A DNA stretch of 64,000 bases. It comes from Pyrinomonadaceae bacterium. Lineage in GTDB: Bacteria; Acidobacteriota; Blastocatellia; Pyrinomonadales; Pyrinomonadaceae. A program made the translations under genes and the position numbers. The stretch covers positions 62,001 to 126,000 of the forward strand of contig JANWYH010000004.1 in the NCBI GenBank assembly GCA_025054715.1. The letters are read 5' to 3'. This document shows positions 1-53,505 of the stretch, piece after piece. Each line of letters begins with the position of its first letter. Within the stretch, counting starts at the first letter, position 1. The notes under the pieces were generated by a model. The model ran no database searches, was not told the origin of the DNA, and worked only from the letters and a program-made list of their open reading frames with translations.

Positions 1-1954
<1,954 letters not shown>

Positions 1955-1992
1955 CTACCAATAGAAAAACATTTTTGAGAAAATTTTGCAAA

Positions 1993-11693: not shown

Positions 11694-13436
11694 ATGAAAG
11701 CTGCCAACTTTAAGATTGCTTTTTGGTTAATACCCTTTCTTTTCGCTTTCGTAAATAATCAGCCTGCTACGGGTTATCAAGAAGTTTCTCAAAGCATTGT
11801 AATCAGCCAGTTTTATGGAGGTGGAGGAGTTGCTGCAAACTCCCCCTATTCGCATGATTTTGTTGAGCTTTTCAATCGCTCAAGTCAACCAGTAAGCCTG
11901 AATGGCTGGTCAGTTCAGTATGCTTCTGCTACTGGAAGCAACTGGCTCGTCACGCCTTTACCTAATGTAACCTTGCAACCCGGACAGTATTTTCTCATTA
12001 AATATGCTGGAAACGGAGCAGGCGGAGCAGAACTGCCTTCTCCCGATCTAAACGCTCCACCAGTTACCGTAGGAACAAATACCTTTGTCCCTAACCTTTC
12101 CTCTACAAGCGGAAAATTAGCACTAGTAAACTCAACAGCTCAGCTACCTGCTTCTACATGCCCAGATTCTCCATCAATAGTAGATTTAGTCGGATATGGA
12201 AGTTCAGCCTCTTGCTTTGAAGGCGAAAGAACTGCTAACTTAAGCGCAACTACGGCAGGAATAAGAAATGGTGGCGGATGCGTTGATACTAACGTAAATT
12301 CATCCGATTTTACAATCTCAGCCCCATCACCTCGCAACAGCTCAAGTCCCACGAACCAATGCAATCTAAGTAGTAATCTTCAAGCAGGCGGTTCTGTCTC
12401 ACCAAATACAACTACACCCGGCGGCACAGTTTTATTCCGAGTAACTGTGTTTCCAGCTACTACTCCGCCAAGCACAGGAATTTCAGTTGTGGCAAACTTG
12501 AATTCAATCGGAGGCATACAAAATCAACCCTTCTTTGATGATGGAACAAATGGTGACACTACAGCTGGTGATAACGTCTTTTCTTTTCAATACACAATTC
12601 CTAACAATGCCACAGGCGGCCAAAGACAAATTCAAGCGCTCGTTACCGACGCTCAAGGACGTTCAGCAAGTCCAATAATAAACTTGAATATTTCAGCGCC
12701 ACCGCCAAATGACAATCCTCTCTTGCTAGGTAACCCCAGCAATGCTACTTCTGATGTCTCAAATGAAAATAACTACCTGATGATAAAGCCGCAATACACT
12801 CTTTCATATAATCGCAGTAGAGCAACACCGAACTGGGTTGCATGGAGGCTAGACCAAAGCTGGCTAGGTAGTGCCCCAAGGCAAGATGACTACCGTCCTG
12901 ATCCAGACCTGCCATCAAGCTGGTATCGAGTAGTTCCTGAGGATTATACAAACTCGGGATATGACCGCGGCCACATGTGTCCTTCTGGCGATAGAACCCG
13001 CTCTATCGCTGATAACTCCGCTACGTTTCTGATGACAAACTTCGTCCCACAACTTCCTGCAAACAATCAAGGCCCATGGGAAGACTTTGAAACTTACTGT
13101 AGGACGCTTGCAAACCAAGGATACGAGCTTTATATCTTCGCCGGAGTCTATGGCAGTGCTGGCACGATAGCCCAGGGTCGCATTGTGATTCCTCAGTTTA
13201 CATGGAAAGTAGTTCTAGTGCTTCCAAATGGCGATAACGATCTTCAAAGAATAAATAAAGCCACAAGAACAATCGCTATACTCGTCCCAAATCAGCCACC
13301 ACTGAATCAAAATGCACCATGGCGGCAGTTTCGCGTCACAGTAGATCATATAGAAGCTATCACAGGATACAATTTCTTCTCCAACGTTCCTAAAAACACT
13401 CAAGAAATAATCGAAAGAAGGAAGGATAACCTATGA
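11694..13436 (+). CDS. Secreted lamin-tail/NUC-domain nuclease
   Basis: Predicted exported DNA/RNA non-specific endonuclease. Residues 1-28 are a signal peptide (hydrophobic FWLIPFLFAFV). Residues about 35-190 are a lamin-tail (LTD) domain (IVISQFYGGGG, DFVELFNRS, LNGWSVQY), residues about 220-330 an Ig-like or choice-of-anchor beta domain, and residues about 350-575 a NUC endonuclease domain. The NUC catalytic motif is intact: YDRGHMCPSGDR, with His as general base, and a downstream Asn (TNFVPQ) for metal binding. The stop overlaps the next nuclease gene by ATGA. A secreted nuclease could release phosphate and nucleosides or remodel extracellular DNA; the exact role is inference. Confidence 0.9.
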   Translation: MKAANFKIAFWLIPFLFAFVNNQPATGYQEVSQSIVISQFYGGGGVAANSPYSHDFVELFNRSSQPVSLNGWSVQYASATGSNWLVTPLPNVTLQPGQYFLIKYAGNGAGGAELPSPDLNAPPVTVGTNTFVPNLSSTSGKLALVNSTAQLPASTCPDSPSIVDLVGYGSSASCFEGERTANLSATTAGIRNGGGCVDTNVNSSDFTISAPSPRNSSSPTNQCNLSSNLQAGGSVSPNTTTPGGTVLFRVTVFPATTPPSTGISVVANLNSIGGIQNQPFFDDGTNGDTTAGDNVFSFQYTIPNNATGGQRQIQALVTDAQGRSASPIINLNISAPPPNDNPLLLGNPSNATSDVSNENNYLMIKPQYTLSYNRSRATPNWVAWRLDQSWLGSAPRQDDYRPDPDLPSSWYRVVPEDYTNSGYDRGHMCPSGDRTRSIADNSATFLMTNFVPQLPANNQGPWEDFETYCRTLANQGYELYIFAGVYGSAGTIAQGRIVIPQFTWKVVLVLPNGDNDLQRINKATRTIAILVPNQPPLNQNAPWRQFRVTVDHIEAITGYNFFSNVPKNTQEIIERRKDNL

Positions 13437-15286
13437 GTTTCAAAAGATTTCCAATTCAGCTAGCTTTACTTCTTTTCGTATCTACTACCTCTTTTTCTCA
13501 AAGAGGTATCGTGCCAATTCATCAGATTCAAGGTGCAAGCAATATTTCTCCTTACGACGGCAGAACCATCACAACACGTGGAATAGTTACCTTCATAACC
13601 CAAAGAGGTTTTTTTATTCAAACACCAGATAACGAAGTAGACTCTGACCCGAAAACTTCTGAAGGCATCTATGTTTTTACGAATGATGTAATCCCGCAAG
13701 GCGTAGCTATCGGAAATCTGCTGGAAGTAACAGGCACTGTTACTGAATACCGTCCTCGAAACGAAAGATATGCTTTGACAATGACCGAAATAGTTAATCC
13801 TGGTATTAAAGTATTGTCTCGTAATAATCCACTTCCTTCTCCTATAAAACTGACTGCCGAAGACCTAAATCCACAAGGTAAAATCGATCAGATTGAGCGC
13901 TTGGAGGGCATGCGTGTAAAGGTTGACAGCCTAATAGTCGTAGCTCCGACCGGAGGATTTGAAGATAGAAAAAGTGGTTGGGTAGTTTCCGACGGTGTTT
14001 TTTACGGAGTTTTACCGGGCACACCTAGACCTTTTCGTGAGCCGGGAATAAGTCTTCTAATGTGGCTCATTGACAAACTACCACAAAATATCCCCTATTT
14101 TGACATGAACCCAGAATTACTACGAGTTGATAGCGACGCTCAAGAAGAAGCCAAACCAATAGATGTAGCCGTCGGAATGACCGTAAAAAATCTGGTTGGG
14201 GTCATTGATTACTCGCGTCGCGCTTATACGTTACTTGTTGATTCAAAAAGCGAGCAACCCATAGTAGAGGGCGAACGAAGTTTCATAAAAGCAAGTCCAG
14301 CAAGTTCTAAAGAAGCTACCATCGCCTTTTTCAACATGGAGAACTTCTTCGATGATGAAAAAAATTCCGACAATGTAAAGGAAGAAACCATTCTTCCAAA
14401 AGAAGTCTTCCAAGCTAGACTAAACAAAGCATCTTTAGCCATCCGTAACGTTCTCTCTATGCCGGATGTGTTAGGAGTAATAGAAGTCGAAAACATAAAG
14501 GTCCTCAGGAAACTGGCTGAAAAAATAAATAACGATGCTGTAAAAGCTAACCAACCAAATCCACAATATGAAGCCTTCCTTGAAGAAGGCAACGACGGAA
14601 GAGGTATTGACGTAGGATTCCTGATAAAAACTTCAAAAGTAAAAGTTTTAGAAGTCAGCCAGCTTGCTAAGAATGAGAAAATCAACTTCGGAAATGAAAA
14701 AGATCGTTACCTTTACGATCGTCCACCTTTGCTGATAAGGGTTGAAATACAAGACGAGAAGAAGCCAGTTTTCACGGTGATAGTCAATCATTTTAAGTCT
14801 TATCTCGGAATAGATGACCCTGAAAACGGTGAATCTATTCGCAACCGCCGACGCCTTCAGGCAGAATGGCTGGCAAACTACATAACAGAAAGACAAAAAG
14901 CAAATCCAGAAGAAATGATAGTCGTAGGCGGTGACCTTAACAGCTTCCAATTCAATGATGGCTATAACGACCTGATAGGAATTCTAAAGGGCACTCCTAG
15001 TCAGAATGTTCTCACACCATCGAAAAGCTCTTATCAAACCGGACTAGTTAATCTTGTTGATTTGATCGATCCTAGAAACCGATACTCTTATGTTTTTGAA
15101 GGCTCTGCCCAAGTTCTAGATCACATTCTGCTAAATAAGCCTGCACAAAAAAGAGCGCTAAAATTCGGCTATGCAAGACTAAACGCTGACTTCCCTAAAA
15201 TTTACTCAAACGACGCAAACCGACCAGAAAGATTGTCAGACCACGACGTTCCGATTGTTTACCTATCACTTGAGCCGCCTCAATAA
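13433..15286 (+). CDS. Secreted ExeM/NucH-like endonuclease (EEP fold)
   Basis: Second nuclease of the operon. It has a signal peptide (LALLLFVSTTSFSQ), an OB-fold domain at about residues 35-150 (GRTITTRGIVTFITQRGFFIQ), and an endonuclease/exonuclease/phosphatase domain from about residue 300. Catalytic features include FFNMENFFDD, the Glu in VLGVIEVEN, NHFKSY, GGDLNSF and the terminal SDHDVPIVY, all standard for metal-dependent EEP nucleases. This OB-EEP arrangement is that of extracellular nucleases such as ExeM. Translationally coupled to the LTD-NUC nuclease; a strong intrinsic terminator overlaps its stop codon. Confidence 0.9.
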   Translation: MSFKRFPIQLALLLFVSTTSFSQRGIVPIHQIQGASNISPYDGRTITTRGIVTFITQRGFFIQTPDNEVDSDPKTSEGIYVFTNDVIPQGVAIGNLLEVTGTVTEYRPRNERYALTMTEIVNPGIKVLSRNNPLPSPIKLTAEDLNPQGKIDQIERLEGMRVKVDSLIVVAPTGGFEDRKSGWVVSDGVFYGVLPGTPRPFREPGISLLMWLIDKLPQNIPYFDMNPELLRVDSDAQEEAKPIDVAVGMTVKNLVGVIDYSRRAYTLLVDSKSEQPIVEGERSFIKASPASSKEATIAFFNMENFFDDEKNSDNVKEETILPKEVFQARLNKASLAIRNVLSMPDVLGVIEVENIKVLRKLAEKINNDAVKANQPNPQYEAFLEEGNDGRGIDVGFLIKTSKVKVLEVSQLAKNEKINFGNEKDRYLYDRPPLLIRVEIQDEKKPVFTVIVNHFKSYLGIDDPENGESIRNRRRLQAEWLANYITERQKANPEEMIVVGGDLNSFQFNDGYNDLIGILKGTPSQNVLTPSKSSYQTGLVNLVDLIDPRNRYSYVFEGSAQVLDHILLNKPAQKRALKFGYARLNADFPKIYSNDANRPERLSDHDVPIVYLSLEPPQ

Positions 15287-15324
15287 AAAGGAAAAATTCC
15301 GCAAAAGCGGAATTTTTCCTTTTT
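15285..15324. terminator. Strong bidirectional intrinsic terminator
   Basis: A perfect 18-bp inverted repeat (15285-15302 with 15307-15324) around an AAAA loop, GC-rich at the tip and ending in five A and five T. It overlaps the stop codon of the second nuclease gene, so it terminates that operon. Read on the minus strand it has the same form and would also stop any transcript leaving the riboswitch region to the right. Confidence 0.92.
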
Positions 15325-15347
15325 TAGAGAAGACAGATCGGCAAAAT

Positions 15348-15373
15348 AAAAAAGGCGCGAAGAAGAATCGCGC
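15348..15373 (-). terminator. Expression-platform terminator of the c-di-AMP riboswitch
   Basis: On the minus strand GCGCGA (15368-15373), loop TTCTTCT and TCGCGC (15355-15360) form a 6-bp stem followed by C and TTTTTT (15348-15353). The left arm and loop (15358-15370) can instead pair with 15395-15407 just 3' of the aptamer: 13 consecutive pairs with a single G-U. This is a textbook antiterminator, mutually exclusive with the terminator. Confidence 0.85.
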
Positions 15374-15405
15374 TTTCGCTTGTGGAAAACTTATCGATCC
15401 TTCTT

Positions 15406-15581
15406 CGATGCTTACGAGGTTAGCTGTCGGGCTAGGAACGAAGAAGTTTCCCGCGTCACAAAGTGACGCTACGCCCCAGTGTTTTGCAATCAGCGGTTGC
15501 AAAACTTTTTGGGTCCCCCGTGTCGCCTTTCAAATACCTCAAGTTTAAACCCCTCTCTTGGGGCGGCGACTTCAGCGATCG
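15406..15581 (-). promoter_or_regulatory. c-di-AMP riboswitch (ydaO/yuaA type), orphan
   Basis: The minus strand carries the hallmark core of the ydaO class: GGGGGACCCA (15510-15519), a variable hairpin (15481-15505, 9-bp stem), TGGGGCG, a GCGTCAC/GTGACGC hairpin (15453-15469), GGGAAACTTC, and CAGCTAACCTCGTAAGC (15410-15426). P1 forms between CGATCGCT (15574-15581) and AGCATCG (15406-15412) with one bulge; P2 forms between GTCGCC and GGCGAC. An antiterminator and terminator follow. By analogy with known ydaO switches, ligand should favour termination. Downstream on this strand there is no gene, only the bidirectional terminator and then the antisense of the nuclease operon. The class call is firm from sequence; the function at this place is unknown. 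Confidence 0.9.
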
Positions 15582-15619
15582 CTTCGTGCTTTCAAAAAGC
15601 ACGAATAAAAGCCATCTTT

Positions 15620-15649
15620 AATATATCATTTGCTAAATATTTTTTGCAA
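15620..15649 (-). promoter_or_regulatory. Probable sigma-70 promoter for the riboswitch RNA
   Basis: On the minus strand TTGCAA (15644-15649), an 18-nt spacer and TATATT (15620-15625) lie just upstream of the aptamer. Transcription would start near 15613, giving an RNA of about 265 nt if it ends at the 15348 terminator. Sequence match only. Confidence 0.55.
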
Positions 15650-15808
15650 GATTTTTTCTTGAGAAATTAAATTAGTAGTAAGAAATTTCGACGTGCATCG
15701 TTTACTTAAGTCAGCATAGATTGGTTAAAAGCGCGCTTATTTTAAAATCTCAGCATTTAAAACGAATGAGTTTAGTTAAGACGCTTTTGCCTTCGGCATT
15801 TTTATTGC

Positions 15809-15838
15809 TTGGCATTCGCACTAGGTGCAGCTTATAAA
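15809..15838 (+). promoter_or_regulatory. Probable promoter of the 53-codon ORF
   Basis: TTGGCA (15809-15814), a 17-nt spacer and TTATAA (15832-15837; TATAAA with an 18-nt spacer is equally good). The start site would fall near 15845, only a few bases before the Shine-Dalgarno of the small ORF at 15856, so the leader would be very short. Sequence match only. Confidence 0.5.
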
Positions 15839-15855
15839 AAAAGTAGCAGGTAATA

Positions 15856-16017
15856 ATGACGGCACTTGAGTGCAGATTTGTAGTCTTCGAAAGGTTACGG
15901 CCGCAGCTAATTCAAAATTTGCAGACGATACTATTCAGCTTAACACTTCCAACACAAATCCGAGTTACTCTGGACGGTATTTCTGTTACGTGGCGAATTC
16001 CACTAGAATGCTTCTAA
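15856..16017 (+). CDS. Small hypothetical protein (53 residues)
   Basis: Unrecognised. An ATG at 15856 follows a Shine-Dalgarno-like AGCAGG (15845-15850) at normal spacing and a promoter-like element. The frame runs 53 codons and ends in a tandem TAA-TGA stop. The product begins MTALECRFVVFERLRPQL, continues with an amphipathic helix and then alternating hydrophobic residues (QIRVTLDGISVTWRIPL) that look like a beta hairpin. It has two or three Cys and no membrane segment. It lies alone between the divergent c-di-AMP riboswitch and the convergent gene at 16100. It could be a chance ORF in AT-rich DNA or a remnant; conservation would decide. Confidence 0.45.
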   Translation: MTALECRFVVFERLRPQLIQNLQTILFSLTLPTQIRVTLDGISVTWRIPLECF

Positions 16018-16099
16018 TGAAAGAGATTATTAGTTACTCTACTTCTGTAACTTCTTCGCTGACTTACATTTTCACCTTAACCTGCTAGCCTCTTAACAT

Positions 16100-17107
16100 C
16101 TAAGCCTTTGCCTCTACGTTTGATTCACTCATCAGTGCTTTAATTTTCTTAATAAGCTCTTCTTCACTTTCTTTATCTTCAAGGAAAAACATAAAGAACT
16201 CATAACCTATCTTGAAGCAAACAAGACCGTTGCCAAAAAGCCAAACTCCTTCCAAGACTGGATTACCTCTTAAAATCCAACTTATCGGCGCTCCCGTTAT
16301 CCTGCCGGGCGAGAAAATGTTAGCCCACATCATTGCTCCTGCGGCAAAAGAAAAAGAACCAAGAAGTGGAGCTCCAACATAACGCGCTATGTCTCGCTCA
16401 AATTTTATTCTTTCTCTTTCAGCAGTATCTAATTGTTCTTTTTGAAGCAGATTTTCTTGATTTTTCAGATAGTCTGTAAACTTCTCCCCTATCTTTCTTA
16501 AAGACCAAACTGGCAAAGCCGAATTAAAAAACCAGTGAGAACTTGCTATCGTCATTCCAGCACCCAACCCTGCGCCGATAACCATTGAAAATCCGCTCAA
16601 AACGGCATTCAGCGGATTTTCTGCTACCCAATTGGCAGTGCGTTTTACGGTTTTCATTGTTGAATTGAGCTTTCCCGCAAAGCTAGTTCCGTATTCAAAT
16701 TTTCTCGAAATTCTCTCCGCTGTTTGATTAAATTCTTCCTTTGTCTTACCAAAAGCCTCTCCCACCTTCTCCTTTGCTAAGTTGAAAACCTCACTTGCTT
16801 TCTCAGTCGCCTCTTCAGCTATGTGACGAATTGGCTCGCTCGTCTCCCAAGCAGACTTTGCAGTGTCGGATGCCACTTTAACTACGTCTTCAGCTAGCTT
16901 CACGGCTTGACGTCCAACTTCACTTTTCATGGCTTCGTCCTTTACACGATCAATCCCCTCGCGCAAACCCTCGGCTCCCTTTTGAGCGCTTTCTGCCAAA
17001 ATTTTCGCACTTTCTTCTATTTTCTCTTTCAATTTGTTGTCTATCTCCTCGAAAGTTTCCTTTGCCTTCTTCTGCCATTCTTCAAATTTTTCTTTATACT
17101 CGGTCAT
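16100..17107 (-). CDS. Amphipathic-helix membrane protein of unknown function
   Basis: Not recognised. Residues 1-140 are almost wholly charged, Lys/Glu/Ala-rich helix with repeating segments such as AEEATEKASEVFNLAKEKV and AKETFEEIDNKLKEKIEES, similar in feel to LEA or apolipoprotein-like 11-mer repeats. Residues about 155-195 hold a glycine-rich hydrophobic segment (LSGFSMVIGAGLGAGMTIA); a coiled-coil region at 210-240 is followed by two more hydrophobic segments (SFSFAAGAMMWANIF and VWLFGNGLVCFKIGYEFFMFF). It ends in an acidic helix. The start is supported by Shine-Dalgarno AGGTGA 6 nt before ATG 17107. Likely a membrane or stress-linked protein; no enzymatic motif seen. Confidence 0.8.
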   Translation of the reverse strand: MTEYKEKFEEWQKKAKETFEEIDNKLKEKIEESAKILAESAQKGAEGLREGIDRVKDEAMKSEVGRQAVKLAEDVVKVASDTAKSAWETSEPIRHIAEEATEKASEVFNLAKEKVGEAFGKTKEEFNQTAERISRKFEYGTSFAGKLNSTMKTVKRTANWVAENPLNAVLSGFSMVIGAGLGAGMTIASSHWFFNSALPVWSLRKIGEKFTDYLKNQENLLQKEQLDTAERERIKFERDIARYVGAPLLGSFSFAAGAMMWANIFSPGRITGAPISWILRGNPVLEGVWLFGNGLVCFKIGYEFFMFFLEDKESEEELIKKIKALMSESNVEAKA

Positions 17108-17225
17108 AATTTCACCTCATACTAGCAAACTAATAAAAGAAAAAGCTCACTTTTTCATATTACCATAACTGCACAAGTAGCTAGGCTAATTTTCACAAAA
17201 CTTAAAGAAAAACTTTAATTTTTGA

Positions 17226-17254
17226 TTGACACTTCCTTAAAAATCTTGTAAAAA
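17226..17254 (+). promoter_or_regulatory. Consensus-like promoter facing into comEC antisense
   Basis: TTGACA (17226-17231), 17-nt spacer, TAAAAA (17249-17254), the closest match to the sigma-70 consensus I noticed outside a gene start. Downstream on the plus strand there is no credible ORF; a transcript would run antisense through the 3' end of comEC. It may be chance in AT-rich DNA. Confidence 0.35.
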
Positions 17255-17300
17255 AGAAACTTCAAGCTAACAGAACTGAAGGGACGCTCTTGATAAGCCT

Positions 17301-19988
17301 TCATCTAAAGATTGCAGGTTTAGAGAAGGTGTCAAGTTTGATTTCTTCACCGTCGGTAACGAAGCTAATAGTTCCATTTTCGCCTGTAGTAAGCACAAAG
17401 GCTCCGTGTTTTCTCCATCTTTCGACAACTTGTTCGTCTGGATGCCCAAAAGGCGAGTTCTTCGGGGCAGATATAACTGCAAATTTTGCATTCACCGCCC
17501 TTATAAAACTTTCTGTAGAAGATGTCCTACTTCCGTGATGAGCAACCTTTACAACGTCAGCTCTCAGGTCCTCCTCTAACAAATCATACTCTGCTTGACG
17601 CTCAATATCTCCAGTTAAAAGAAAACAAACTCGACGATAGCACAACTTAATTACCAACGAAGCGTTATTGCCAGCAAGGTTTACATCTGATTCTCGAGGA
17701 TTCAGAATTTTAAATGTTACATTTTCGAATCTTAGCTCGTCTCCCTTTTTGATTTTTTCAATATTGACTTGCTTCTTAATTAAAACTTCATAAAGACTAA
17801 GAAAATCCTCGTTATCAAAAGGCATACTTGCAAAAAAAGCCGTCTTAACCTGGAAATTTTTAGCTACGTTCACTAGTCCTTGAATATGATCCGCGTCAGC
17901 ATGAGTTGCTATTATAAAATCAACTTTCGAATACCCTTTCTCCCACAAAAAAGGCGAGACAACCGTTTCCCCAATTCTTTTTATCTCCGGCTCAAAAGTC
18001 TCTATTTCCCCTTCTTCATTACCTACATAAAGCTTCCTGAGATTCTGTCTTCCGCCCCCATCTATTAAGAATGTCTCACCCGTAGGTAGCTTAATAAAAA
18101 TTGAATCTCCTTGCCCAACATCTAAAAATTCAACATGAAGAAGCCCATCGGCAGATGGTTTGCTAAATGGATGAAATAAAATCAAACCAGCAAAAACTAT
18201 GAAAGAAAGAAAAGAAAACAAAAGTCTCTTGTTCAAGGCATCTGAAGGCTTAAAAGGATTCCATTTATAGATTAGAAACGAAAGATAAGCCACAGGCAAA
18301 AAATACAAAAAATAAGCGGCTTTCATTAAACCTGAGTAGTGCGCTAATCTAAAAGCCGCTACATCACGAACAACAAAAAAGCGCGTCCCTTCTAAAATCA
18401 GAAAATTAAGAGCTTCAGTAATAAGAATGAAACTAAAGGCTAGATAGTAACTCACTTGAGAAATTAAAACAGAAGCAATTGCCGTCAAGCTCTCAAGCGA
18501 CATCAAAAACCCAGCCCAAAGGTTCAAAAATATGCCAGCAACTGAGACTCGATGAAAATAAACTGCCATTAATGGCAATAGCCATATCTGTATCGAAATT
18601 GTCACAACCAGAGCCTCAAACAGGTATTGCAGAATTTTTTGAAGTTTCAGATTTTCCAGCTTTTCTGCTAAAGGAGTTTTGAAAAGATGACAACTCCAAA
18701 CATTTTGTTCAACTTCATATCGCCATCTTTGTTGGCTCCAGTAAAGAGCCTCACAAAAAGCTTTCAATTGGTCTGAACAAAAAGGAGGACTTGGTGTCTC
18801 CTCACAAAGACGCCACTGACCTATTCGACGAAAGTTCTCAATCAGAGGCGAAGCCGTCCCAGCAATCCCCAAAACGCACAGAAAAGTCAACTGAAAAGAT
18901 GGATTAAACAAATCTAGCGGGTTCAAGACCAAAAGAATAAATCCAGATAAAGCAAGAAGATTTAGCATCGTTGACTGACGAAAGAAAACTCTTCCTAGCA
19001 AAACAACCGTCAACATCACAGCGGCACGCACAACCGGCTTTTCGTAAAAACCAACCGACAAAGAGTAAAGCCAAATGAAAACGCTTGCAACTAAAAACAA
19101 CAAAAGGCGATCTCTTATAAAAAAGCTCAAAATTAGAATTAGAGTCACTCCAATGAACATAACCTGCAAGCCGCTTACTACAAGCACATGATAAATGCCA
19201 CCCTCTAGAAATGCCTCTGAAGTATCCGCATCGAGAAAATAAGGATTGCCAAGAAGAGAAGCTACTAGAATACCTGCCGTCTTCACTGAAAAAATCCTTA
19301 GTGCTTCGTCAATTATAAAATCCCTTAACTTCAAGACTTCGAAAAACGGATTCCAAAAACTCAACTCATCCCTCTTTTCAACAAGTAACGGACTTTTCAA
19401 ACTACAAGTAGCATCTATGCCTTTCTGGTCTAGAATAAACCTTGTTGGAACGACTCCTTTATTTTTGAACTCGTCTTCTCGCTTTAATAGACAAAAAACA
19501 GCAATTCCCGAGCCATAATCTATTGAAAGCTTCTCATAATCAGCTATCATCTCGCGATTATGCGTTGGTAAAAAGATTCTAACAAACCCTGAAGTAATTA
19601 TTTCCTCACCTTTGAATATGACTTTGCTCGTATCTACGCCGAGAAAAAGACCATTTGGCGACTTTTCTTTTCTGACAACTGTACCAAAAATTTCCACAGG
19701 CTTGCCAGATTCAAGTTTCCCATCCTCATAAAGTCCTCGCAAGCTATCTAAAAGGTTTCTTTTTTCAACACAAAAACAGAACGCTCCAGCGCTAACAAAA
19801 CCGAAAACTAAGAAGACAACGACGAAAGAATTGCCCTTTTTCCAGAACCATGCCGACAGCAACAAAAATGCTGATGCGCTCAAAAGCCAAACCAGAAACC
19901 CGAAACCCGCATAACTTTCTAAAAGGATACCTAAAGCAAATGAAGCGAAAAGCCAAAGAAAAGGATTTAGAGAAAAGCTCGATGCCAT
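17301..19988 (-). CDS. comEC: ComEC/Rec2 DNA-uptake channel with MBL domain
   Basis: Polytopic inner-membrane protein that carries single-stranded DNA into the cytoplasm during natural transformation. Residues 1-200 are the DUF4131/OB-like region after two membrane helices; residues about 225-580 are the competence membrane domain (GGIYHVLVVSGLQVMFIGV is its signature); residues about 625-895 are a metallo-beta-lactamase domain with ATHADADHIQGL and, further on, KVAHHGSRTSS. At 895 residues it is on the long side because of an insertion at about 385-455 rich in Trp, Gln and Cys. It directly follows the comEA-like gene on the same strand (19 nt gap), forming a competence operon. Confidence 0.95.
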   Translation of the reverse strand: MASSFSLNPFLWLFASFALGILLESYAGFGFLVWLLSASAFLLLSAWFWKKGNSFVVVFLVFGFVSAGAFCFCVEKRNLLDSLRGLYEDGKLESGKPVEIFGTVVRKEKSPNGLFLGVDTSKVIFKGEEIITSGFVRIFLPTHNREMIADYEKLSIDYGSGIAVFCLLKREDEFKNKGVVPTRFILDQKGIDATCSLKSPLLVEKRDELSFWNPFFEVLKLRDFIIDEALRIFSVKTAGILVASLLGNPYFLDADTSEAFLEGGIYHVLVVSGLQVMFIGVTLILILSFFIRDRLLLFLVASVFIWLYSLSVGFYEKPVVRAAVMLTVVLLGRVFFRQSTMLNLLALSGFILLVLNPLDLFNPSFQLTFLCVLGIAGTASPLIENFRRIGQWRLCEETPSPPFCSDQLKAFCEALYWSQQRWRYEVEQNVWSCHLFKTPLAEKLENLKLQKILQYLFEALVVTISIQIWLLPLMAVYFHRVSVAGIFLNLWAGFLMSLESLTAIASVLISQVSYYLAFSFILITEALNFLILEGTRFFVVRDVAAFRLAHYSGLMKAAYFLYFLPVAYLSFLIYKWNPFKPSDALNKRLLFSFLSFIVFAGLILFHPFSKPSADGLLHVEFLDVGQGDSIFIKLPTGETFLIDGGGRQNLRKLYVGNEEGEIETFEPEIKRIGETVVSPFLWEKGYSKVDFIIATHADADHIQGLVNVAKNFQVKTAFFASMPFDNEDFLSLYEVLIKKQVNIEKIKKGDELRFENVTFKILNPRESDVNLAGNNASLVIKLCYRRVCFLLTGDIERQAEYDLLEEDLRADVVKVAHHGSRTSSTESFIRAVNAKFAVISAPKNSPFGHPDEQVVERWRKHGAFVLTTGENGTISFVTDGEEIKLDTFSKPAIFR

Positions 19989-20007
19989 CGCGTTGAAAGC
20001 CTTTACC

Positions 20008-20328
20008 CTACGGCTCTTTTCGATCTACCACCGTTACAAAATCTTTTATTTTTCTAAACTTTGCATCACTCATGCCCCTTACTAAAATCAAATGTTCTGC
20101 CCGTCGGAAATGCCCATAAACTTTACGATGCTCGACAATTCTTTCCGCAAGCTTCCTCCCGACGTGCGGAAGCTTTTCTAACTCATCTACACTCGCCGAA
20201 TTTATATCAATTGCTTTTATTGAATGCGTTTTAATTTCTCTTAATGTCTCTTTTGGCTTCTCAGACTTGTAACAGCCAGACAGAAAAACCGTAAAGATAC
20301 AACTCGCTAAAAGAATTTTTCGATGCAT
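20008..20328 (-). CDS. ComEA-like helix-hairpin-helix DNA-binding lipoprotein
   Basis: Small exported DNA-binding protein. The start at ATG 20328 gives a lipoprotein signal sequence ending in the lipobox LSGC; an ATG 27 nt upstream (20355) is also in frame. The C-terminal 65 residues are a double helix-hairpin-helix domain (DINSASVDELEKLPHVGRKLAERIVEHR), as in ComEA, which binds incoming DNA outside the inner membrane. Lipid anchoring replaces the membrane helix of classic ComEA. It lies just upstream of comEC, supporting a joint role in DNA uptake. Confidence 0.88.
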   Translation of the reverse strand: MHRKILLASCIFTVFLSGCYKSEKPKETLREIKTHSIKAIDINSASVDELEKLPHVGRKLAERIVEHRKVYGHFRRAEHLILVRGMSDAKFRKIKDFVTVVDRKEP

Positions 20329-20378
20329 ACAGAAGTGTGCAAAATGGTATGTCATGCCGAAATATCAATAATTTAGCC

Positions 20379-50958: not shown

Positions 50959-53505
50959 ATGGAGATAATAAGTTACAACCAGGTGAATATCGAAGACGAA
51001 ATGAAACGCTCGTATCTCGATTACGCCATGAGCGTAATCATTGGACGAGCCTTACCTGATGTGAGAGATGGATTAAAGCCTGTTCACAGACGCGTTCTCT
51101 GGGCTATGCACGAGCTAGGCAATACACATAATAAACCTTACAAAAAATCAGCTCGCGTCGTCGGTGAATGTCTCGGTAAATACCATCCTCACGGAGACAT
51201 GGCAGTTTACGAAACGATAGTCCGAATGGCACAAGATTTCTCAATGCGTTATCCGCTAATTGATGGACAAGGCAACTTTGGCAGTATTGATGGTGATGCG
51301 GCGGCTGCTCAAAGATACACAGAAGTCAGAATGTCCCGCATAGCAGAAGAACTACTAGCAGACATCGAAAAAGAAACAGTTGATTTTCAACCAAATTACG
51401 ATAATTCACTATTAGAACCTAAGGTCTTGCCGGCACGCTTCCCAAATCTTCTAGTAAACGGCTCGGAAGGTATCGCTGTAGGAATGGCTACCAAAATTCC
51501 TCCTCACAATCTTTCAGAGATTATTGATGCAACAATCGAACTAATTAAAAATCCGAATATTACAATTGACGAACTCATTAAATACATTCCAGGACCTGAT
51601 TTTCCTACAGGTGGATTCATCTACGGTCGCGAAGAAATATACAAGGCCTACCGTGAAGGTCGTGGCGTGATACAGCTTCGAGCTCGTGCTGCTATCGACC
51701 GCATCGGGCGAGGAAGTAGCGAAAGAGACGCTATCGTAATAACGGAGATTCCATATCAAGTGAATAAGGCTAAACTCATTGAAAAAATTGCAGAACTAGT
51801 GCAAGAGCGAAAATTAGAAGACATTGCTGAGATACGAGATGAATCAAATCGTGAAGGAATGAGAATTGTTCTAGAACTTAAAAGATCGGCTGTGCCGCAA
51901 GTGATTCTAAATAAGCTATACAAATTAACTCCTATGCAATCAAGCTTCGGAATAATTAACCTCGCACTGGTAAATGGGCAGCCGAAAATTTTAAACTTAA
52001 AGCAACTTTTAGAGGCTTTCGTTAATTTCAGGCGTGAAGTCGTAAAAAGAAGAACAGAATACGAGCTCAAGAAAGCGCGTGCAAGAGCACATATTCTTGA
52101 AGGTTTAAACAAAGCGATTGATGCACTCGATTACATAATCCCTCTCATAAGAAACTCCCGATCGACGGAGGAAGCTAAAAATTGGTTAACAGCTGATTTT
52201 TCAACACTTTATGAGGTTAGAAACTGGCGTGGCATCCCGCAAAACAAAACGCTTGCAGGTTTTTTGAGAGAATTACAAAAGAAGATATCCGAACTAGGTT
52301 TCTCCGAAGCTCAAGCACAGGCAATTCTGGATTTGCAACTTAGAAGGCTGTCTCAACTTGAGCGTCAGAAAATAATCGATGAGTTAGAAGGACTTCTTAA
52401 ACAAATATCCGAATATGAAGCAATCCTATCAAGTGAAAAACTGCTCAGACAAGTCATCATCAAAGAATTACAGGAGGTAAAGAAACAATTTGGTGATACC
52501 AGAAGAACTCAGATAGTTGATGCCGGCGTTGAAATTAAAATTGAAGACCTGATACCGGATGAAAACGTTGTCATAACGGTTACCAAAATGGGCTACGTGA
52601 AACGCACGCCCGTTTCATCCTACTCAAGACAAGCCAGAGGAGGAAAGGGTCGCTTCGGAGCAAAAGCGAAAAATGATGATTTCGTTGAGCATCTTTTCAT
52701 AGCATCAACACACGCTTACCTGATGATTTTTACTGACGATGGGCAGGTTTACAAAATCAAAGTTCACGAAATCCCCGAAGCTGAACCTTCAGCAAGAGGA
52801 AAAGCTATTGTAAATCTAGTGGCTATTCCTTCCGACAGAAAAGTCGTTTCTGTAGTCGCGGTGCGCGATTTTCCTGAAGATAAATACCTTACTTTCGTCA
52901 CAAAACAAGGTATCATAAAAAAGACCTCTCTTTCCGAATATCAGAACATCCGTTCAACAGGGATAAATGCCATAAACATTGACGAAGGAGATGAACTAAT
53001 AAAAGTCATTGAAACTGACGGCAAAAAGCAGATTTTTATAGCAACGAAAGACGGAATGGCTGTTAGATTTAACGAAGATGAGGTAAGACCAATGGGACGT
53101 TCGGCAAGAGGCGTCCGTGGCATATCTTTGCGCGAAGGAGACTTTGTAGTTTCAGCCTGTGCTTTATCTACGGAGGGAGAAGAGAAAATTTTATCAATTT
53201 CAGAAAAGGGCTATGGCAAACAAACTCATGTTGAAAACTATCGCCTAACAAAACGAGGTGCTTATGGCGTGATAAACATGAAAACCACAGAAAAAACAGG
53301 AAAGGTTGTAGCTGCTTTTCCCGTTGACGAAAACTCTGAGGTGATGATAATCACAAAACAAGGCAAATTAGTCAGGCTCGGAGTTGACAAAATTCGTGAA
53401 ACAGGGCGTAGCGCACAGGGCGTAACTCTCATTCGCACCGATGATGATGATGTAGTAACCAGTGCCTCCGTTCTCAAAGAAGAAGAAGAAGAAGAAGAAG
53501 AATAA
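50959..53505 (+). CDS. gyrA: DNA gyrase subunit A
   Basis: Breakage-reunion subunit of gyrase, introducing negative supercoils with GyrB. The catalytic Tyr is Tyr120 (AAQRYTE, 51316-51318). Residues 1-500 are the winged-helix/tower core; the C-terminal beta-pinwheel has a GyrA-box variant QARGGKG at 52630-52650 (canonical QRRGGKG), which supports gyrase rather than topo IV. In the quinolone pocket [13 protein letters not shown], the residues matching E. coli Ser83 and Asp87 are Met81 and Glu85. The protein ends in eight glutamates encoded by a GAA repeat. Length 848 is normal. Confidence 0.96.
53479..53502 (+). repeat. (GAA)8 microsatellite at the end of gyrA
   Basis: Eight consecutive GAA codons giving a Glu8 tail directly before the TAA stop. 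Acidic GyrA tails are known in other bacteria and modulate supercoiling in E. coli. The pure repeat could vary in number by slippage. Confidence 0.9.

Follow-up and report, generated by a model that had tools for sequence, protein, structure and literature searches.

The DNA analyzed here, a 64,000-nt stretch of contig JANWYH010000004.1 from a soil-type Pyrinomonadaceae bacterium (the window), carries on its minus strand what is likely a stand-alone small regulatory RNA controlled by c-di-AMP, the long form of which would act in trans. Several parts of this picture are shown, namely the match to the aptamer family, the anatomy of an antiterminator and two terminators (T1 and T2), a conserved promoter motif, conservation as a single copy, the absence of a linked gene, and relocation of the locus with retention of the RNA. 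Ligand binding, control of termination, the identity of the active form and the action in trans are inferred.

The aptamer is represented by a cmscan match to RF00379 (c-di-AMP/ydaO aptamer) at 15394-15555(-), which spans the full length of the model (positions 1-134) with 61.5 bits (E 7.7e-12) at a gathering score of 38 bits. This full-length, above-threshold match makes the locus a member of the family; binding of c-di-AMP by this particular RNA remains an inference. The core strings of the aptamer, P1 and the internal hairpins are all found at the locus, and the 334-nt RNA folds 6.5 standard deviations below its dinucleotide shuffles. A search of the 2.45-Mb window genome returned this aptamer as its sole RF00379 copy. 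A diadenylate cyclase gene (PF02457) is present in all ten genomes tested, the window genome among them, so that the presence of c-di-AMP can be assumed. The window also contains an ordinary cis riboswitch, a TPP riboswitch (RF00059) at 1851-1956(-) with 70.7 bits, placed directly before a thiC gene (3-1859(-)) that leaves the window, and offers in this way a contrast to the stand-alone RNA.

Upstream of the aptamer, a promoter scan found a sigma-70-like promoter at 15620-15649(-), composed of TTGCAA (15649-15644), an 18-nt spacer and TATATT (15625-15620), with TG before the -10 element. From the position of this promoter we infer an RNA start near 15613, on which the lengths of both predicted forms rest: a short form of ~266 nt ending near 15348(-), and a long, read-through form of ~329 nt covering 15285-15613(-), as delimited by the promoter, aptamer and terminator positions. 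The promoter motif and the terminators are conserved; a discrete transcript and its short and long forms are predicted from sequence only. Sequence and alignment place a 5' hairpin, UUCGUGCUUUUUGAAAGCACGAA, at 15583-15605(-) in the window member only; relatives carry UGUUGAAAA at that place.

Within the aptamer, the pseudoknot 5' strand CUUCUUCG at 15439-15446(-) is able to pair with CGAAGAAG at 15400-15407(-). The hexamer AAGAAG is invariant across the 45 members of the alignment. The 5' strand of the antiterminator (15395-15408(-)) overlaps the 3' strand of the pseudoknot and forms a 13-pair duplex of about -19.4 kcal/mol with the antiterminator 3' strand at 15358-15370(-), which lies within T1. 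CGAAGAAG is thus common to the antiterminator and the 3' pseudoknot of the aptamer. T1 itself (15343-15373(-), terminator scan) consists of a GCGCGA/UCGCGC stem at 15355-15373 followed by the tail CTTTTTTATTTT. The locus meets the criterion for an expression platform, as the 13-pair antiterminator overlaps both T1 and the pseudoknot strand. In relatives, the counterpart of the antiterminator pairing is present in 88% of cells, without covariation, and the U-tract of T1 is less clean in many of them.

Beyond T1, the alignments reveal a linker element, UCUGUCUUCUCUAAA, at 15323-15337(-), with the consensus GACAUCCGGUCUUCUCAAAG in relatives. It is followed by T2 (~15285-15324(-)), a palindromic terminator of 18 pairs and about -24.8 kcal/mol that is stronger than T1 and is common to the RNA and the opposing nuclease gene. 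The 3' arm of T1, the linker, the element and T2 together form a 3' module, located at 15287-15371(-) by a covariance model match (R2, described below). Much of this anatomy had been proposed by a sequence-only reading of the window, and every feature it described held: the ydaO-class core, P1, P2, the hairpins, the promoter, the antiterminator and two terminators are all on the minus strand where that reading had placed them. The RF00379 search it had suggested as a check gave the significant match reported above. Its 13-pair antiterminator, its second strong terminator at 15285-15324 lying 24 nt beyond the RNA, and its RNA of ~265 nt with a read-through form ~65 nt longer agree with our positions, the two lengths again counted from the inferred start.

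Riboswitches are defined by their action on the gene directly behind them. A cis element should accordingly lie upstream of, and in line with, the coding region it controls, and the locus fails this criterion: T2 intervenes, and the gene downstream is an opposing one in the window, in a sister genome and in most relatives. In the window, this neighbor encodes an ExeM/NucH-type extracellular nuclease (13433-15286(+), identified with Pfam/NCBIfam), and no conserved open reading frame was found between the RNA and the stop of the nuclease gene at 15286. On the minus strand just one long frame is present (15266-15502, 78 aa); it has a TTG start inside the aptamer, gives no Pfam match and has no counterpart in relatives. 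Across the 13 gene-less members of the RNA group described below, no open frame or frame position is shared, be it in the T1-T2 interval or over the RNA as a whole. The sequence-only reading had claimed that no reading frame fits between the RNA and T2 and that no target gene lies behind the switch. Both claims held, with the opposing gene lying beyond T2.

The surroundings of the RNA in the window show further features. The first gene upstream of the RNA, which lies on its strand (16100-17107(-), 335 aa), has an apolipoprotein-like helical match that is weak and stays below threshold, and NCBIfam gives no match for it. Two adjacent secreted nucleases, an Endonuclease_NS with a lamin-tail domain and the ExeM/NucH type, occur within the region 11694-20355, near ComEC (17301-19988(-)) and a ComEA-like HhH protein (20008-20355(-)), and a role in DNA scavenging and uptake is possible. 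A perfect short (AAG)8.7 tandem repeat is located at 53477-53502. No plasmid match was found. On present evidence the opposing nuclease is not part of the function of the RNA, as the sister genome and other relatives have different neighbors.

The distribution of the switch allows for a comparison of copies with and without a target gene. RF00379 matches were detected in 34 of 60 relatives, amounting to 57 copies with that of the window included, and they are of two sorts. The ordinary sort comprises an aptamer, usually one terminator, and an in-line gene, mostly for a large permease-like transporter; one of these genes matches the potassium transporter KimA (E 3e-153). Several relatives (loci L045, L070, L071 and others) harbor two to five c-di-AMP riboswitches, some placed on one contig before neighboring permease-like genes and others before very different genes. 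The second sort, represented by 13 copies including the one in the window, has a constant layout of promoter, aptamer, T1, linker and T2, with no in-line gene before T2. In one of these (genome G009) an in-line gene begins only after T2. In a tree built from the aptamer alone, the 13 gene-less copies form a single clade with a support of 0.979.

A covariance model (R1) was built from the 3' module, with the window and sister copies in its training set. It detects exactly one copy apiece in 65 of the 119 family genomes, distributed over 10 of 29 genera, and the module is absent from all 43 further genomes of the class that were searched. The family carrying the RNA belongs to the Acidobacteria, with many genomes deposited as Pyrinomonadaceae. 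A second model, R2, built without the window genus, still matches at the expected place both in the window (37.1 bits, E 1.4e-5 in 80 kb) and in the sister genome (40.7 bits, E 2.8e-6). When module loci were scanned with Rfam, the aptamer lay upstream in 20 of 20 (one of them cut by the locus end), and no other RNA family appeared. Named genomes were also scanned with a sequence pattern, which brought the joint set to 47 with members whose records bear the labels Pyrinomonadaceae, Acidobacteria, Blastocatellia, Chloracidobacterium and Aridibacter famidurans. The RNA is uniform in length, 267-327 nt in relatives as delimited in our analysis. In nearly all members with enough flanking sequence it lies just downstream of COX3 and DUF420 genes on the same strand. 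A convergent M1 peptidase gene follows in many members, though not in all, and some genomes have another, in-line gene after T2.

Between T1 and T2, the gene-less copies share a near-invariant element, gUCUUCUCaAAg. Searched as the motif [AG]TC[TG]TCT[CT][AT]AA at 76-100 nt past the aptamer core, it is present in 12 of the 13 and absent from all 41 other switches tested. The mean column identity among the 13 independently collected members is 94% for the element, 72% for the aptamer and 50% for the 100 nt after T2. Since TCTTCTC was part of the pattern used to scan named relatives, we rely on these independent copies alone for the conservation of the element. The joint set adds a linker consensus, UUUUUCAACA...CAGACAUCCGGUCUUCUCAAAG, before T2, and in 44 of its 47 members a promoter-like sequence immediately precedes the aptamer (TTG, ~17 nt, TGTGnTATAnT, followed by GTTGAAAA). 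Covariation is seen in T2, where 9 of 13 pairs have changed on both sides among 37 members.

We considered whether the element might form part of an intramolecular switch and rejected this: the sequence around AAGAAG with which it could pair is variable, so such pairing does not account for its invariance. Near-invariance of the element in spite of variable possible partners within the RNA points to a probable reader outside it, either an mRNA or a protein. A separate helix between the 5' end and the linker (UGUUGAAAA with UUUUCAACA) is paired in 93% of cells in relatives versus 42-52% in slid controls of the whole structure. This helix shows almost no covariation and is absent in the window member, which has the local 5' hairpin instead, so that its reality is no more than a possibility. 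In the 45-member alignment (A2; for example L062:4809-5116), UGUUGAAAA and the linker UUUUCAACA are complementary, frequently within a small hairpin loop, and this pairing could conceivably shield the 5' end or give rise to a pseudoknot. Many members also have a hairpin about the linker loop, which was set aside, being not clear of shuffles.

Comparison with the sister genome of the same genus (G001) offers a view of the RNA in a second setting. That genome also has one RF00379 match, and its RNA faces a convergent gene of the histone-deacetylase family, with a carboxyltransferase gene upstream. The two RNAs are 79% identical over 238 columns, an alignment that extends into both terminators, while the DNA of three protein-gene regions is 66-71% identical between the two genomes. 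Nothing on either side of the RNA can be aligned between the two. Hence the RNA is better conserved than the compared genes, and its two settings are unrelated. In both genomes (G000, that of the window, and G001) the RNA is sited away from the COX3 locus and the M1 peptidase gene, and neither genome yielded a second copy of it. Either the RNA or its neighbors moved at least once, perhaps twice, with the RNA retained, and such retention through relocation argues against a function tied to the neighbors.

For an action on distant targets, conservation independent of neighbors is observed, but no complementary mRNA site was found. The complement of 16 nt of the element, with up to two mismatches, gave 42 matches in eight genomes, eight of them the locus itself (11 for a reversed-pattern control), and no recurring site or cluster near start codons emerged among the loci inspected. 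An 18-nt complement returned nothing above control in the window genome, and a 12-nt complement followed by ATG, sought in 118 genomes, mainly recovered the RNA locus itself, the remainder being scattered. The potassium transporters Kup (PF02705) and TrkH (PF02386) were tried as displaced targets and rejected for the window genome and its sister, neither gene being detected there.

We propose the following mechanism, in which the switching steps are inferred from the anatomy and the known logic of the class. Transcription would start at the RNA's own promoter. With c-di-AMP bound, the pseudoknot between CUUCUUCG (15446-15439) and CGAAGAAG (15407-15400) would hold the latter strand and block the antiterminator, T1 would form, and the short RNA would be released. 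At low c-di-AMP, CGAAGAAG would instead pair with the T1 arm, allowing read-through to T2. The resulting long RNA would gain the conserved element, (g)UCUUCUC(a)AA(a/g), together with T2, and may act in trans, most likely through pairing of the element with an mRNA or its binding by a protein. Weighing against this explanation are the lack of RNA-seq, binding or genetic data, an antiterminator without covariation, and the absence of any mRNA target in our searches.

Several other explanations deserve consideration. The locus could be a relic, a once ordinary cis riboswitch left behind when its target gene disappeared or moved elsewhere, with the platform persisting by inertia. Two genomes of one genus, each with a switch facing a convergent gene, would on their own look just like this, and the window genome has no other c-di-AMP riboswitch. 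However, 65 genomes from 10 genera each retain a single conserved copy of the RNA, and the gene-less copies form one clade, so the loss of the target would have to predate the clade and the platform would then have been maintained without purpose. A relic would also be expected to decay, whereas here a near-invariant element and T2 persist beyond T1 and identity within the genus exceeds that of gene DNA. We regard this explanation as very unlikely. A small peptide encoded downstream under riboswitch control can be all but excluded: the 78-aa frame does overlap the locus in the window, but it begins inside the aptamer, finds no Pfam match, and nothing like it is shared among the 13 members.

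A local regulator in cis, with read-through running antisense to, or colliding with, the convergent gene, or with the RNA serving as a 3' UTR element of the cox operon, is harder to dismiss, yet remains unlikely. It gains support from the fact that most copies stand immediately behind COX3-DUF420, in the same orientation, and that many face the M1 peptidase gene. Against it, T2 is strong, covaries and precedes the convergent gene; the downstream gene varies, in some genomes even running in the same direction; and neither usual neighbor is kept in the window genome or its sister. The cox-operon synteny upstream in nearly all other members nonetheless leaves room for a local role there. Finally, the RNA could work as a c-di-AMP sponge or as a protein-sequestering decoy, in the manner of Rli55 and EutX, rather than by base pairing. 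This remains possible and overlaps with our preferred explanation, being a special case of trans action. The near-invariance of the element alongside varying internal pairing partners speaks for it, as does the lack of a complementary mRNA; no known protein-binding RNA element is recognised, though, with Rfam giving the aptamer only, and a pure sponge would need neither T1, the element nor T2.

The trans-acting small RNA thus remains the preferred reading, and it bears on two alternatives left by the sequence-only reading, that the target had been lost or moved, or that the RNA itself is the product. The comparison of the locus in relatives, which that reading had suggested, shows exactly one copy retained in each of 65 family genomes, the 13 gene-less copies united in one clade with their own promoter motif and 3' module, and survival of the RNA through relocation in the window's genus; it favors the RNA as product. 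The second alternative is hence supported and can be extended to a conserved RNA gene of the clade, with ligand response and trans function still inferred. A bolder version, toward which we lean only slightly, holds that the clade possesses a single-copy, dedicated c-di-AMP-sensing sRNA without any cis target, in which the level of the messenger would choose between short and long RNA and the 3' module would regulate distant mRNAs or a protein. A whole bacterial clade then seems to have made a second-messenger riboswitch into an independent RNA gene. If true, c-di-AMP would be able to reach distant genes with no protein receptor in between, and the many natural sequence variants would serve the study of how such RNAs evolve and what they target. 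For annotation, the locus cautions that an RF00379 match is not automatically the leader of the nearest gene.

In the literature we searched, which left subscription papers mostly outside, neither a stand-alone riboswitch RNA for c-di-AMP nor any account of one in this family turned up. Trans-acting riboswitch RNAs in general are described as rare examples (PMC7266159). On present evidence the RNA behaves like a riboswitch-controlled sRNA; with transcript and target inferred, its membership of that group is unproven. Compared with RF00379 (ydaO/yuaA leader) switches, it shares the aptamer family over the full model and the antiterminator/terminator platform typical of the class. Other copies in this bacterial family precede in-line genes, often for transporters, whereas the 13 clade copies have no in-line gene before T2 and carry an extra conserved module after T1. 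The closest resemblance in logic is to the vitamin B12 riboswitch-controlled sRNAs Rli55 of Listeria (PMC8079631) and EutX of Enterococcus (DebRoy 2014, cited in PMC7266159), in which the ligand leads to an early RNA end and its absence to a longer RNA with an extra functional element. The ligand differs. In Rli55, near the eut genes, the element is an ANTAR-like site bound by EutV, and no such site is recognised in the stand-alone RNA. SreA, a SAM riboswitch of Listeria (PMC8079631), is similar in that its terminated RNA has a further effect on an mRNA elsewhere, but SreA additionally controls the operon directly behind it, and the stand-alone RNA has none. AspocR, a B12 riboswitch-controlled antisense RNA of Listeria (PMC8079631), shares the combination of a riboswitch with a non-coding product; it is a 1.4-kb antisense to pocR, whereas T2 halts the stand-alone RNA before it reaches its neighbor.
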